Below are positions 8,359 through 31,491 of a stretch of DNA of 44,944 nt, one piece after another. The stretch is from Gemmatimonadota bacterium (GTDB lineage Bacteria > Gemmatimonadota > Gemmatimonadetes > Gemmatimonadales > Gemmatimonadaceae): contig NSHR01000032.1 of assembly GCA_002737115.1 (NCBI GenBank), positions 1 through 44,944 on the forward strand, given 5' to 3'. The first letter of the stretch is position 1, and each line of letters opens with the position of its first letter. The translations under genes were made by a program, and so were the position numbers. Below the pieces are notes generated by a model, which made no database searches, was not told the DNA's origin, and saw nothing but the letters and a program-made list of their open reading frames with translations.

Positions 8359-8454
8359 CGTAAAATGCGAAAACGGCGAACAGCGCACTGTGCACTGATT
8401 CGCCGTTTACTCTTCGCGCGTTTTACGTTAGCGCGGTTGACTCGTCGCGCCGTT
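8359..8454 (-). repeat. Array A: tandem 15-16 bp GCGC-centred repeat with inverted end copy
   Basis: Read on the minus strand the region contains four successive units: AACGGCGCGACGAGTC (8454-8439), AACCGCGCTAACGTAA (8438-8423), AACGCGCGAAGAGTA (8422-8408) and AACGGCGAATCAGTGC (8407-8392). An inverted copy at 8371-8386 pairs with the last unit (10-bp perfect arms 8371-8380 and 8399-8408). The same unit occurs at 20195-20317 and 28657-28797. The array begins 7 nt past the stop of the sugar dehydrogenase gene, so it would be transcribed as its 3' end. The 248-bp gap holds no gene I can support. Confidence 0.8.
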
Positions 8455-8461
8455 CATTAGT

Positions 8462-9631
8462 TCACCGCCGCGCGACTGGTTCCATGCGCATCACTGCGGT
8501 CGGCTTCGCTTGTTGTTCATCGATCGAAAAGTAGATGAACCCGTCCGGTCCTTGCTTCACGTCGCGGATGCGTCCCTGCGTGCGCACCAGGTTGTCCTCG
8601 ACGTTGAACACCTTGCCGTCGTAGGTGAGACGCACAATGCGCGGTCTGGCGAGTCCGCCCACGAAGAAGCTGCCCTTCCATGCCGGGAACTTGTCACCGG
8701 AGTAGATCATGAGGCTCGACGTGGCGATGGAGGGCACCCACACATTCTTCGCGTTCTCCATGCCGTCACGCATCGTGCCCGCGTGGATCGCGACACCGGG
8801 GCCGTAGTTCACGCCGAAGCCAACGACCGGCCAGCCGTAGTTGAGCCCCTTCTGGATCAGGTTGAGTTCATCGCCACCCTGCGGTCCATGCTCCACGGCC
8901 CACACCTCTCCCGACGTGGGATGGATCGCGAGGCCCTGCTGATTCCGATGACCGTAGCTCCAGATTTCCGGCTTGGCGCCAGCCTTGCCCACGAACGGAT
9001 TGTCGGGGGGTACACGGCCATCGTCGAACAGGCGAATGACTTTGCCGTGGTGATTCGACAGGTCCTGCGCCGGATGCTTCTCGAGATCACCAGTAGGCGG
9101 CGCCTGGCGCTCGCCGACGGTGATGAACATCATGCCGCTCTTGTCGAACGCGATGCGCGACCCGAAGTGGCCCGGTGCGCCCTTAGTGTCGGCGACGAAG
9201 ACATCCTTCACGTCGACCAGCGCGTTGTTTTCGAAGCGCCCACGCGCGACCGCGGTGGTGGCGGCCCCGCCGCCGGTGGGCTTGGAGTAGCTGAGATAGA
9301 CCAGCTTGTTCGCCGCAAAGTTCGGATGCGCCACGACATCGAGCAGACCACCCTGTCCGCGGTAGACGACTTCCGGCACACCGGTGACGGGCGTGGGCAG
9401 CAGCTTGCCACCGCGCACGAGGCGGAGACGGCCGGGCCGCTCGGTCACCAGCAGGTCGCCGCCGGGAAGGAACGCCATCGACCACGGCTGCACGAGCCCC
9501 TCAGCCACGGTAACGAGGCGGTAGTCGTGCGCCGACGACTTGTACACGGGCGACTGCGCCATCGCGGGTACCGCGAGCAGCGCGCTCGCCGTCGCAACCG
9601 CGCGCGCAAGCAGAAACGTACGACGAATCAT
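8462..9631 (-). CDS. Soluble PQQ-dependent aldose sugar dehydrogenase (YliI/Asd-like)
   Basis: The product is 389 residues with a signal peptide ending AVPAMAQ, so it is probably periplasmic. The six-bladed propeller motifs of the GSDH family are present: QPWSMAFLPGGDLLVTER, GQGGLLDVVAHPNFA with the likely catalytic-base histidine, YGHRNQQGLAIHP and EHGPQGGDELN. Relatives oxidise aldoses with pyrroloquinoline quinone and pass electrons to the respiratory chain. Whether this host makes PQQ is not visible in the window. It is preceded by the HDAC-like gene on the same strand with a 42-nt gap and followed at once by repeat array A. Confidence 0.92.
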   Translation of the reverse strand: MIRRTFLLARAVATASALLAVPAMAQSPVYKSSAHDYRLVTVAEGLVQPWSMAFLPGGDLLVTERPGRLRLVRGGKLLPTPVTGVPEVVYRGQGGLLDVVAHPNFAANKLVYLSYSKPTGGGAATTAVARGRFENNALVDVKDVFVADTKGAPGHFGSRIAFDKSGMMFITVGERQAPPTGDLEKHPAQDLSNHHGKVIRLFDDGRVPPDNPFVGKAGAKPEIWSYGHRNQQGLAIHPTSGEVWAVEHGPQGGDELNLIQKGLNYGWPVVGFGVNYGPGVAIHAGTMRDGMENAKNVWVPSIATSSLMIYSGDKFPAWKGSFFVGGLARPRIVRLTYDGKVFNVEDNLVRTQGRIRDVKQGPDGFIYFSIDEQQAKPTAVMRMEPVARR

Positions 9632-20194: not shown

Positions 20195-20317
20195 GGCAAA
20201 CGGCGCGAAAAGTGAAGGGCGACATGGCGCCCCTAACTGTCAGCGCAGTAAACTCTTAGCGCGCCCTCCCGTAGCGCGGTGTACTTTTAGCGCTCCTACC
20301 TCTTAGCGCCGTTTGCC
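20195..20317 (-). repeat. Array B: tandem 15-17 bp GCGC-centred repeat bounded by 12-bp inverted ends
   Basis: Read on the minus strand there are five direct units: AACGGCGCTAAGAGGT (20313-20298), AGGAGCGCTAAAAGTAC (20297-20281), ACCGCGCTACGGGAGG (20280-20265), GCGCGCTAAGAGTTT (20264-20250) and ACTGCGCTGACAGTTA (20249-20234). An inverted copy lies at 20195-20216. The two ends form a perfect 12-bp inverted repeat, 20195-20206 against 20306-20317. The inverted copy matches the outer unit of array C at 24 of 26 positions. The rest of the 311-bp divergent gap (20138-20448) shows no gene. Confidence 0.82.
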
Positions 20318-27483: not shown

Positions 27484-27940
27484 TGTTTTCGCGCACGAAG
27501 CGAACCGCCATGCCCGGCGGGCGGTAGCCGAGTTGGAGTAGATGGTCGATGGAAAGAAAACGCGGGGTCGGCAGGGCGTCCCAGGAACACCACTGCCACT
27601 CGGCGCACTTCTCCGGCTCACGCACCTCGGGCGCCCCGTCGAGGGACGACGCCAGTACGAAGAGCGTGACGTAGTGCTTCCCTTCGTCGACGAAAATGTC
27701 GTTGGTGTGCGGCCCATCACCGAGCACGGTGACCGCGAGCCCCGTTTCTTCCGCCACTTCGCGCAGGGCGCACTGGGCGATCGACTCGCCCCACTCGAGG
27801 TGACCCCCAGGGAACTGCCACGTCGCATCGCCGTGTGACGTGCTACGACGTCGTCCGATCAGCACCAGTCCGTCGCGGATCACGATGACGGCGACACCGA
27901 TGCGCGGCATGCCGGTAGTCGGTACGCGCGCTACTTCCAT
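27470..27940 (-). CDS. Nudix hydrolase
   Basis: The product is 156 residues from ATG at 27940, which overlaps the end of the flavoprotein gene by 10 nt; much longer frames upstream are shadows of that gene. The full Nudix box GX5EX7REUXEEXGU is present as GGHLEWGESIAQCALREVAEETGL, of which I quote the start GGHLEWGE and the end REVAEETGL. MPRIGVAVIVIRDGLVLIGRR opens the fold. Such enzymes cleave nucleoside-diphosphate derivatives, often in nucleotide sanitation. Overlap with the upstream gene implies co-translation. Confidence 0.92.
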   Translation of the reverse strand: MEVARVPTTGMPRIGVAVIVIRDGLVLIGRRRSTSHGDATWQFPGGHLEWGESIAQCALREVAEETGLAVTVLGDGPHTNDIFVDEGKHYVTLFVLASSLDGAPEVREPEKCAEWQWCSWDALPTPRFLSIDHLLQLGYRPPGMAVRFVRENTTVQ

Positions 27941-28599
27941 ACGGTGATCGCTTCGAGCGGTTTCCTGGCCAGATCGGGCACCGCCGCATCGGCCGCGGGA
28001 TAGCCGACGGGCATGACGAGCATCGCCTTCTCGTTCGTTGGGCGCTGCAGAAGCTCCCCGAGAAATCCCATCGGACTCGGCGTGTGCGTGAGACAGACGA
28101 GTCCCATATCGTGGATGGCCGAGATGAAGAATCCGGCCGCGATACCACAGGACTCCTGGGTGTAGAAGTGCGTGCGCTTCTGCCCATCGGGGAAATGGCC
28201 GTACGATTGGCGAAAGAGCACGACCACCCACGGCGCGTCAGTGAGGTGCGGCTTGTGTTCGTCGGTACCGAGCGGGGCCAAGGCCTCGAGCCACTCGGGG
28301 GTGGCGCGTCCGGCGTAGAACGCGCGCTCCTCGGTTTCAGCCGCCTCGCGAATCTGCTGCTTGAGCGCGGCATCGGACACCGCCACGAAGGTCCATGGCT
28401 GCTGATGCGCGCCGCTCGGCGCCGTGCCGGCCGAACGGATGGCCAGCTCGATGAGCTCGCGGGGGACGGCGTCGCGGCTGAAGTGACGCGTCGTGCGACG
28501 ACGATCCACGTGTGCGTAGTGCGCACGCGCGCGAGAGAGAGAGACGTCAGGTGTGAGACGCTCAAAGGCGAGCGGAACGAAGGGAAGCGCGGAGCTCAT
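27931..28599 (-). CDS. Nitroreductase-superfamily flavoprotein, iodotyrosine-deiodinase-like
   Basis: The product is 222 residues. RRRTTRHFSRD and APSGAHQQPWTF form the FMN-binding start. SCGIAAGFFISAIHDMGL and THTPSPMGFL, with RPTNEKAMLVMPVGYPA, match the iodotyrosine deiodinase branch rather than generic nitroreductases. The three zwitterion-binding residues of that branch are present with the right spacing: E91, Y95 and K116 (Glu, +4 Tyr, +21 Lys). The predicted role is reductive dehalogenation or binding of halotyrosine-type amino acids in the cytosol. Activity is inferred. It precedes and overlaps the Nudix gene; array C lies upstream. Confidence 0.9.
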   Translation of the reverse strand: MSSALPFVPLAFERLTPDVSLSRARAHYAHVDRRRTTRHFSRDAVPRELIELAIRSAGTAPSGAHQQPWTFVAVSDAALKQQIREAAETEERAFYAGRATPEWLEALAPLGTDEHKPHLTDAPWVVVLFRQSYGHFPDGQKRTHFYTQESCGIAAGFFISAIHDMGLVCLTHTPSPMGFLGELLQRPTNEKAMLVMPVGYPAADAAVPDLARKPLEAITVWK

Positions 28600-28656
28600 G
28601 AAAGACGAATGGAGGTCGGAAGGGCGGTGCTCGGGATGAACGGCGCTCAGTATTAC

Positions 28657-28797
28657 GGGCGTGAAGAGCGAACTGCGCCAACAGCTAAGCTCTGAGCTCT
28701 GGGCTGTTGGCGCAGTTCGTTGTTCACGCGGTCAACGCTTGGCGCTACTTCCCTTCGCGCGGTCGACTTGTAGCGCGGTTCACTCTTCGCGCCGTTT
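28657..28797 (-). repeat. Array C: six-copy GCGC-centred repeat with a 17-bp perfect hairpin
   Basis: Read on the minus strand the direct units are AACGGCGCGAAGAGTG (28796-28781), AACCGCGCTACAAGTCG (28780-28764), ACCGCGCGAAGGGAAGT (28763-28747), AGCGCCAAGCGTTG (28746-28733), ACCGCGTGAACAACG (28732-28718) and AACTGCGCCAACAGCC (28717-28702). The last unit is repeated inverted at 28669-28685, making a perfect 17-bp stem with 28703-28719. Pairing resumes beyond a 3-nt internal loop (GTGAA/TTCAC). The array starts 9 nt past the stop of the protease gene. The 206-bp gap holds nothing else I can support. Confidence 0.84.
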
Positions 28798-28805
28798 GCC
28801 GGTGA

Positions 28806-31259
28806 TCACGGCCACGGCAGTATGATCACCGGGAACCGCGGCCGCGCCGTCGGATCGTCGTTCCCATCCATGAAGCGCGCGATGTCGTGGCGTGCCGATG
28901 CCACATGCGCTTGCATCGCAGCGTCGGTGGAGGTCAGGCTGGCGAGCTGTGCATCGAGCGCCTTCAGGTGCATGAGGGCGGCGGCGCGCACGTCGGGCAT
29001 GGCACGCTTGTCGCCGGCGAGGTCGAGGACGGCGTCGACAGCCGCGCGCTGTGCGGCGCGTTGCACGGCCTTCTCTGGTGCGGCGCTGGCGGCGGTGCTG
29101 CCCCACGTGCGCTGTACGACGGTGCGCAGGACTTCGTCGAGAGAGAGCGCGGCGTTGTCACGTCCGGCGATCAGCACCACGCGGGCAAGGCGCTCACGGT
29201 CGAGCAGATAGCCGATCACTTCCGTGGCGAGGCCACCAGCCAGCGTGACGGCGTCGAACGTCGTGCCGCCGTTGCTGTCGATCCACGTCATGTCCGCGTT
29301 GAAACCGGGCGGCGCGGGCGGAATCATCTTCTGCACGCGCTCGGGAACCGTGAGCTCGCTCGGCTGAATGGCGTCGAGCGCCATCGTGAGCGCACGGCGC
29401 TGCGTGGCGGCGGGCACGATGGTGGTCGGCGTCTGTCCGTCGCCGCGCAGCGTAAACGTGAAGTCCATGCCGCCGATGTTCTTGGCGAGGCCTTCCAGCG
29501 AGTAGCGGTGATGCAAGTACACGTGGCCGAAGCGCATGTTGAGCAGCGCCATCGGCTCGCCCGGCTTGATCGCGCGTTCGTCGAACTTGTCCATCAGCAC
29601 GCGACGCACCTTCGACGTACGCTCCACGGCGTCGAACATCGTGGCGCCTTCCACCCAGCGCGTCACTTCGGGAATCGATCCGTTGGCGCTCGCATACTGG
29701 TCGTTGATGAAGCGCACGTTGCGTGCGAGGCCGTCCTTCATGATCGCGTCGAGTCCCTTCGCTTCCGACGCGCTGTCGGCGTACCACGTGTACCCCAGCT
29801 TGATGGCGAGCGTGTCCCACGCGCCGGGGCCTTTGCGATACGCGTCGCGCAGATCGGGCGTGCCGTCAGCGGCGAGCGTGATCAGCGGATACGGATAGTC
29901 CATCACCGACGTGCGGCCCTGCGAATGCGCGATGTAGTTGTGCGACAGGCCGAGCGTGTGGCCGATTTCGTGGGCCGCATGCTGGCGACGGCGTGACATG
30001 GCGAACGTCTCGGCGTCCACGTTCGGGCCACGCGGGCCGGAGGCCGGCACCGTGCCGGCCCAGATGTTGTAGTCGACCAGCGACCGCCAGGCGTCCATCC
30101 GCACCATAGCGCGGATGATCTCGCCGGTGCGCGGGTCGCTGTAGCTGGGGCCCACGCTCGGGCCGGGACCGGAGCGGTGCACCCACATGAGCATGTTGTA
30201 GCGGGCGTCCATCGGGTCGGCGCCGGCGGGGAGGTCGAGCACGCGGAAGGCGTTCTTGAAACCGGCGGCCTCGTACACCTTGGCCCACCAGTTCCCCCCT
30301 TCGCGCAGCGCTTCGCGATACTGCGCCGGGATACCGGGATCGAGGTAGTAGGTGATCGGGGTGACGGGCTCCGTGAGCTCGCCACGGCGGTACGCCGCCG
30401 GATCCTTGGGCACGAGGCGCCAGCGATTGATGAAGCCCGAGCGATAGGTGCCGTCGAAGCCCTGAGACAAATCGGCGAACTGCGTGCCGCCGTAGCCGAA
30501 GCGCGGATCGAAGTTTCGCGGGCGATAGCTGGTGGGATCAGGGAGCACGACCAGCGAGTGGTGCTCCTCGAAGGTCATCGCCTTGGGGTCGGGCGCCGCG
30601 CGGCGCGCGAGTCCGCCGGGGGCATCGCTCACGAAGGTCAGCACGGCATGCACTTCGGCATTCTTTGGGAACGCCTTGGTGCGCGCCGTATCGAGCCAAC
30701 TGCGCGTCGCGTCCACGCGGTATGCGCCGGCCGATCCGCCGGCACCGACGCCGCCGGGGCCGGCGCCGCCACGGAGGGCATCGGCCACGCCATAGGCGTC
30801 GGCCAGGAAGAGCGACGTGGCGTCGACCGTGGTCACGCCGTCCTTCTCCCCATCGACGGTGAACGAGGCCACCACCGAGCGCGGGAAGGCATCGGAGGCG
30901 GCCTGCTTGTTGCCGGCATCGCCGTTGGGTGCTCGCACGCTCCAGTTATCCCGCACCATCAGCACGCGGTTGCCGCGCCGTTCGAGGCGCACCACCACGC
31001 TCTGCCCCATCTGGGCCCGATCGAGCCCGGGGCCGTTGCTCTGCCCGAGTCCGGTCGTGAGGGTGACCTGATGCAGGAAATCCTTGCCCATCTGCGCGGC
31101 GGGGATGTCGAGCAGAGCGCGGTTACGGGCCTCATCCACGCGGACACGGAGGAAGGGCGCGTCGGGCGCTTGGGCGGACAGACCTGACGTGACGCCGGCA
31201 AAGGCGACCGCCGCGGCGGCAAGACAGCGCGGCAGGAAACGTGGGCGGAGCTTGGACAT
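28806..31259 (-). CDS. Secreted zinc metalloprotease, metzincin-like (DUF5117/DUF4953 type)
   Basis: The product is 817 residues from ATG at 31259 with a signal peptide ending AGVTSGLSAQ. The zinc site HEIGHTLGLSH is at residues 430-440 (H430, E431, H434, H440). A SVMDYP Met-turn is at 451-456, the metzincin arrangement. An N-terminal DUF5117-like region (about 35-300) precedes the catalytic region that begins YYLDPGIPAQYREAL. A helical C-terminal domain of some 300 residues follows. It is presumably exported and hydrolyses proteins outside the cytoplasm. An upstream in-frame extension to 31388 falls into palindrome D and has no signal, so it is not used. Confidence 0.92.
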   Translation of the reverse strand: MSKLRPRFLPRCLAAAAVAFAGVTSGLSAQAPDAPFLRVRVDEARNRALLDIPAAQMGKDFLHQVTLTTGLGQSNGPGLDRAQMGQSVVVRLERRGNRVLMVRDNWSVRAPNGDAGNKQAASDAFPRSVVASFTVDGEKDGVTTVDATSLFLADAYGVADALRGGAGPGGVGAGGSAGAYRVDATRSWLDTARTKAFPKNAEVHAVLTFVSDAPGGLARRAAPDPKAMTFEEHHSLVVLPDPTSYRPRNFDPRFGYGGTQFADLSQGFDGTYRSGFINRWRLVPKDPAAYRRGELTEPVTPITYYLDPGIPAQYREALREGGNWWAKVYEAAGFKNAFRVLDLPAGADPMDARYNMLMWVHRSGPGPSVGPSYSDPRTGEIIRAMVRMDAWRSLVDYNIWAGTVPASGPRGPNVDAETFAMSRRRQHAAHEIGHTLGLSHNYIAHSQGRTSVMDYPYPLITLAADGTPDLRDAYRKGPGAWDTLAIKLGYTWYADSASEAKGLDAIMKDGLARNVRFINDQYASANGSIPEVTRWVEGATMFDAVERTSKVRRVLMDKFDERAIKPGEPMALLNMRFGHVYLHHRYSLEGLAKNIGGMDFTFTLRGDGQTPTTIVPAATQRRALTMALDAIQPSELTVPERVQKMIPPAPPGFNADMTWIDSNGGTTFDAVTLAGGLATEVIGYLLDRERLARVVLIAGRDNAALSLDEVLRTVVQRTWGSTAASAAPEKAVQRAAQRAAVDAVLDLAGDKRAMPDVRAAALMHLKALDAQLASLTSTDAAMQAHVASARHDIARFMDGNDDPTARPRFPVIILPWP

Positions 31260-31361
31260 GTGGCGCGGGACGAGGTGGAGGGTCGGCGAACTCCCGATTG
31301 TAGCACCGGTAGAGCGGGGTGCGCCATCGGTGCGGGGGTGGGAAAACGGGAACGGCAACGG

Positions 31362-31491
31362 CCAGAACACGGATGACACGGAATACACCGAACCAACACG
31401 GATAAGCAGAACGGCGCCGAGAGGTATTTTCTCGGCGCCGTTTCGCTTATCTGTGCGTTGTCCGTGCCGTTTCCGTATATCCGTGTTCTGG
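31362..31491. repeat. Element D: 130-bp nested palindrome of ACACGGAT-like units
   Basis: Outer arms CCAGAACACGGAT (31362-31374) and ATCCGTGTTCTGG (31479-31491) are a perfect 13-bp inverted repeat. Next come GATAAGC (31401-31407) and GCTTATC (31445-31451). The core AACGGCGCCGAGA (31410-31422) pairs perfectly with TCTCGGCGCCGTT (31430-31442) around a 7-nt loop. Between the layers each arm carries several ACACGGAA/ACACGGAT-like units in opposite orientation. It fills the gap between the lipase 3' end and the protease start and could act as a bidirectional terminator or be a mobile-element remnant. Confidence 0.82.

Follow-up and report, generated by a model that had tools for sequence, protein, structure and literature searches.

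Three short arrays of a roughly 16-bp tandem repeat lie between protein genes in a 44,944-nt stretch of Gemmatimonadota DNA (positions 1 to 44,944 of contig NSHR01000032.1, assembly GCA_002737115.1; hereafter the window), and they are probably satellites, devoid of a gene, within a family of fold-back elements that encodes an IVP protein (23S_rRNA_IVP, PF05635), resembles the intervening sequences (IVSs) of 23S rRNA and has a partnership like that of RAYT and REPINs. All three copies, at 28638-28797 (copy A), 20198-20314 (copy B) and 8368-8455 (copy C), are worn. They share with IVP-type fold-backs the inverted arms of one repeat around a centre, eroded as these arms are in the window; since none of the three has an IVP gene between its arms, they are classed as gene-less relatives rather than as full members.

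A coding member of the family would consist of an IVP gene with arrays of that tandem unit on both sides, in opposite orientations. At locus L071 of genome G015 (G000 being the window's genome), a 138-aa open reading frame between forward and inverted 16-mer arrays encodes a 23S_rRNA_IVP protein, a four-helix bundle. Such 16-mer arms enclose the IVP gene in G015, G024 and G029, and partly in G017, where the contig ends, always at one orthologous site that adjoins an ABC substrate-binding gene. The IVPs within 16-mer arms from these four genomes form one tight cluster, and dN/dS values of 0.10-0.22 among them indicate purifying selection. At the same site G000 and G025 retain arm pieces, 16-mer units and gene remnants, while the middle is deleted, which shows that the coding element has lost its IVP gene there. 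The position beside the ABC gene has other occupants elsewhere: an IVP with arms of a sister unit in G020 and G027, another IVP in G022, an IVP match in G026, and gene-less fold-backs made of other repeats in G006, G009 and G019. In G021 the element is absent from this site.

The association of IVP genes with mirrored short repeats is well supported across the genus and in other phyla. Within the genus the IVP gene is multicopy: 28 of 30 genomes have it, with up to nine per genome, and it was found in none of 14 control genomes. When the left flank of each gene was locally aligned with the reverse complement of its right flank, the threshold being the 99th percentile of controls, 81 of 93 genus loci scored above the 99% level of control positions; since many of these loci are orthologous, the 81 do not represent 81 independent events. 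The median score was 92, against a maximum of 31 at 115 control positions and a 99th percentile of 49 for mismatched locus pairs. Of 80 IVP loci sampled across many phyla of bacteria, 76 were usable in this test, and 40 of these exceeded a stricter control threshold. The flanks in this sample are sharply periodic, with z values of 41, 29 and 26 at 7, 14 and 21 bp, compared with -0.8, -0.9 and 8.7 in the controls, the last value arising from the three-periodicity of coding sequence.

The only IVP match in the window's genome is of another type (L122, G000:C35:28157-28480), with reverse-complementary flanks that are rich in 7-bp repeats (flank score 122). In G013 an IVP gene lies between very long arrays, one of 9-bp units and one of 11.5 copies of a 15-bp unit (L126:1173-2102). 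IVP genes also occur inside conserved operons, between carA and carB in Xanthomonadaceae (L255, L285, L286) and between accB and accC in Dyella and Dokdonella (L261, L293), and in Solimonas (L281) one lies upstream of a metF-like gene; all of these have heptamers on one side or both. Geobacter sp. AOG1, with five PF05635 matches in its genome, has an IVP gene with a long array of GGAACTC-type heptamers (L322).

At the carA-carB site of Xanthomonas, repeats and gene occur together or are missing together. Six of 20 Xanthomonas genomes have an IVP gene there, and heptamers are mirrored on both sides in species-specific form (GGGACCC, GGGACCG or GGGACTC). In the genomes examined that have no IVP, the heptamers are likewise absent between carA and carB (the comparison left out the IVP-bearing G083). 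In the Solimonas genome, which has one IVP match, the pattern GGGAATC that flanks it occurs 89 times, against 0 for the reversed control. Grouped by hand, these fall into 47 array clusters, among which there are 13 convergent and no divergent pairs; one convergent pair is the IVP locus L281 and the other twelve are gene-less.

The 16-mer repeat of the window has a similar organization in its intact relatives, which are fold-backs, most of 95-260 bp, of tandem GAACNGCGCNAANAGN units, a centre and the same units inverted (in one example from G015, five units and then five inverted ones). The order within the arm is fixed at different loci, and the third unit is characteristically shortened (...CGCTAAGGTAA...). 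The earlier note on this DNA, made from the window alone, had proposed a genome scan for an excess of units, and the outcome depended on the pattern used. A loose 14-mer with one mismatch gave 83 matches in the whole metagenome-assembled genome against 74 for its reversed control, which is barely above that control and makes the single unit unfit for counting, whereas a two-unit pattern, run on 61 genomes from the genus, its family and its order, matched 8, every one of them of the genus, and its reversed form matched none. The match in G007 was set aside, as it resembles another simple repeat and the arm profile is empty there. This profile, built from sequence only and run on the 30 genus genomes, is strong in seven, with 4 matches in G000, 20 in G014, 23 each in G015 and G017, 26 in G024, 10 in G025 and, in the complete genome G029, 35 at about 16 places by our own count; it found nothing in 22 genomes and one marginal match in G005. 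The seven carriers are close relatives, as judged by the identity of flanking proteins rather than by a species tree, and the near relatives G020 and G027 carry a sister unit of the GACGGCGTTAGGAT type. Rfam gave no match in the window at gathering score, and a plasmid search gave two matches only, at chance level.

Much of what the earlier note described in copy A can be read directly from the minus strand. Six units of about 16 bp run head to tail from 28797 to 28703 (AAACGGCGCGAAGAGT, GAACCGCGCTACAAGT, CGACCGCGCGAAGGGA, AGTAGCGCCAAGCGTT, GACCGCGTGAACAAC, GAACTGCGCCAACAGC; arm profile E 3.8e-15), and 28669-28685 and 28703-28719 are perfect reverse complements of 17 nt within a 27-nt arm pair of 93%, enclosing a 17-nt loop (28686-28702). 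Beyond the loop, the last unit recurs inverted at 28685-28670, followed by two further inverted unit remnants, the outermost of which, at the 28638 end, is ATACTGAGCGCCGTTC. An inverted arm worn down to about three units (28638-28685, plus strand) had therefore been overlooked when the element was given as 28657-28797: the features named are all present, but the element continues to 28638. Similarly, copy A is the best-preserved copy within the window, but it has lost most of one arm relative to its orthologues, in which the inverted half is the rule (more of it is kept in G014, G017 and G024). That the arrays form a family rather than a chance pattern also stood, the 14-mer core (at most one mismatch) having 13 occurrences in the window where 0.83 (sd 0.75) would be expected. 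Copy A follows the gene for a Met-zincin (DUF4953) protein (28806-31388, minus strand), whose stop codon, with its last base at 28806, is 8 nt away from the first unit, as the note's placement of the array just behind a stop codon implied; a nitroreductase gene lies downstream (27931-28599, minus strand). The site is common to G000, G014, G017, G024 and G025. A central hairpin resembling that of copy A, AAC-GCGCCAACAGC...CTGTTGGCGC, occurs in G029 (L204:1400-1500), perhaps at another locus because no nitroreductase orthologue was found in that genome.

The two further sites with this architecture that had been claimed in the window are copies B and C. Copy B has one unit on the plus strand (20198-20213) and mirrored units on the minus strand up to 20314 (arm profile E 5.7e-13). 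Copy C, on the minus strand, has three units and the central hairpin but has lost its inverted arm (E 2.9e-11), and it begins 6 nt past the stop codon of a glucose/sorbosone dehydrogenase gene (8462-9631, minus strand). Its site holds the 16-mer family in G000, G014, G015, G017, G024 and G029 and a fragment of it in G025. Elsewhere there is an element of sister units (G027), an unrelated repeat in the same position after the stop codon in G001 and G023 (GGGCGTAAGGTGTGACTGCGTAAGGTGGAC; L229, L226), and an apparent ordinary terminator hairpin in others such as G021 and G026. Repeats of different types can therefore occupy the same position.

In the relatives, full-length copies form hairpins that are almost unbroken (z -10 to -18). 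In the window, the fold z is -5.5 to -6.2 for copy A on the minus strand (-6.2 over the whole element at 28638-28797), -2.5 for copy C and a weak -1.4 for copy B. The check for covariation in the terminal hairpin that the note had suggested did not bear out selection on an RNA, as double changes occurred in only 3 of 67 and 4 of 48 pairs and the covariation term was unfavourable; since the centre hardly varies, this is not evidence against a structure either. The matched arms may instead stem from hairpin-templated repair. The note's exclusions hold as well: the elements are not a clustered regularly interspaced short palindromic repeat (CRISPR) array, as the units abut and mirror each other and there are no unique spacers, nor an ordinary intrinsic terminator, as no T-run follows either side of copies A and C. 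Nor are the copies 23S rRNA IVSs proper, which are insertions in 23S rRNA.

It is possible that the arrays are simply functional hairpins in 3' untranslated regions, kept as transcript terminators or stabilizers, and that the link to IVP is incidental. The location of copies A and C close behind stop codons, the very stable folding of full copies and the ordinary terminator hairpin that replaces copy C in some relatives all fit this idea. However, it is unlikely given the missing T-run and covariation, and given that copy B folds poorly and lies away from any clear gene 3' end; it also leaves the mirrored arrays around IVP genes unexplained. Perhaps the mirrored repeats are neutral, being made and homogenized by replication slippage and hairpin-templated correction, with IVP merely sitting among them. 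Such a process would account for arms that match although the units at one site differ by lineage, and for the free variation in copy number. Yet many loci share one arm with its units in the same order, which needs copying between loci, such flanks are absent at control positions of the same loci, and the Xanthomonas genomes without IVP also have no repeats at carA-carB, so that we consider a purely neutral origin quite unlikely.

Mobility by a known enzyme appears very unlikely. The dispersal of inverted short-repeat pairs in intergenic DNA recalls REPINs moved by the Y1 transposase RAYT, and the resemblance of PF05635 to Avd of diversity-generating retroelements (PMC10053308) would suit retro-mobility in which IVP partners a reverse transcriptase much as Avd does. 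However, the gene found within the arms is IVP. No Y1 transposase gene was seen between arms, although no search was aimed at Y1 transposases, and reverse transcriptase (PF00078) was found in 3 of the 30 genus genomes and in none of the seven carriers (five of which, G000, G014, G015, G017 and G025, are incomplete), and is thus absent from 27, including the complete, element-rich G029. The regular 16-bp spacing of direct units would also suit a binding-site array for an unrelated DNA-binding protein, as in a plasmid origin or centromere, but the many chromosomal loci, the mirrored arms and the patchy loss argue against it and no such protein was identified, which makes this extremely unlikely. 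The note's broader suggestion of a multi-site protein-binding RNA or DNA is possible, with IVP as the candidate binder.

Several observations weigh against the proposal that the window arrays are satellites of an IVP-encoding family. The 16-mer IVP is known from a single orthologous site, so that one insertion, together with the general pattern, is what ties it to the 16-mer. No clear IVP remnant was found in the dispersed copies, where there was one 16-nt match at a contig end (L062) and shuffled sequences, five times as many, gave 12 weak matches; these copies may therefore have spread without the gene or arisen otherwise. G014 has many arms yet no IVP match (the genome is 80% complete), about half of the cross-phylum IVP loci fall short of the inverted-flank threshold, and no insertion with a target duplication was caught. 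Among the Xanthomonas genomes, GGGAATC arrays are numerous in G079, which has no IVP at carA-carB, and absent from G063, which has an IVP; since GGGAATC arrays also occur where the carA-carB IVP has another heptamer, repeat and IVP do not correspond one to one per genome.

The closest precedent for an IVP-encoding fold-back is the 23S rRNA IVS of Coxiella burnetii, in which an S23p/IVP gene lies within stem-forming inverted repeats that are excised by RNase III, with tandem GACAGAT heptamers ahead of the gene (PMC4990558). The elements described here likewise have an IVP-family gene inside inverted repeats that form a stem, but they lie between protein genes, their arms are long tandem arrays and many copies are gene-less. 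The REPIN/RAYT system (PMC3116915) is alike in that a few coding loci are accompanied by numerous short inverted pairs that share the repeat but lack the gene; unlike it, the present family has arms made of tandem arrays of a non-palindromic unit, and its candidate partner is a four-helix bundle protein rather than a Y1 transposase. The note's description of the arrays as possibly REP-like (repetitive extragenic palindromic) is broadly apt for this dispersed family, but it missed the mirrored units, the range of few species and the tie to IVP. Dispersed heptamer arrays in Xanthomonas, Nostoc, Beggiatoaceae and Geobacter are similarly tandem, often in convergent pairs and mostly intergenic, although the unit here is 16 bp, and the GGGAATC heptamer of the Xanthomonas arrays flanks an IVP gene in Solimonas. 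Avd, which works with a reverse transcriptase, is related to IVP in fold and family, but neither a reverse transcriptase nor a template/variable repeat was found alongside the elements studied here. Eukaryotic foldback transposons have long inverted ends built from tandem short repeats, an architecture that is alike without any claim of homology.

The inferred scenario is that the IVP protein, whose solved relative 2gsc is a pentamer of four-helix bundles (PMC4990558), recognizes the repeat hairpin as DNA or RNA and helps the repeat to be copied or kept in trans, while hairpin-templated repair would keep the arms matched. The hairpin in the transcript could be processed, as RNase III does with 23S rRNA IVSs, such that insertions would be tolerated at gene ends and between the genes of operons; the Coxiella precedent would explain tolerated insertion in transcribed regions. 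More tentatively, IVP proteins may be the trans-acting factor of widespread bacterial fold-back repeats. With neither a transposase nor a reverse transcriptase of their own, they would disperse and homogenize tandem units particular to each lineage, and several heptamer families regarded as regulatory may be their gene-less satellites.

In the literature consulted, such repeats and the IVP protein are treated separately. Apart from the heptamers of the Coxiella IVS, we found no paper that links IVP genes with dispersed tandem repeats, although subscription papers were not covered and priority is uncertain. The parts consulted of the reports on GGGAATC arrays in Xanthomonas and related repeats in Nostoc (PMC4692102) and on TAACTGA repeats in Beggiatoaceae (PMC4679880) describe these without a link to IVP, as do those of the G. 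metallireducens genome paper, which presents paired heptamer arrays as regulator sites (PMC2700814). PF05635 is a widespread family with no known function outside diversity-generating retroelements, and there have been repeated reports of dispersed heptamer arrays that leave them unexplained. Suitable material for testing such a link is the Solimonas genome, where dozens of arrays accompany a single IVP gene, and the Xanthomonas species with or without the carA-carB insertion. That IVP genes commonly lie within mirrored tandem repeats offers a single testable hypothesis for an orphan protein and several repeat families.
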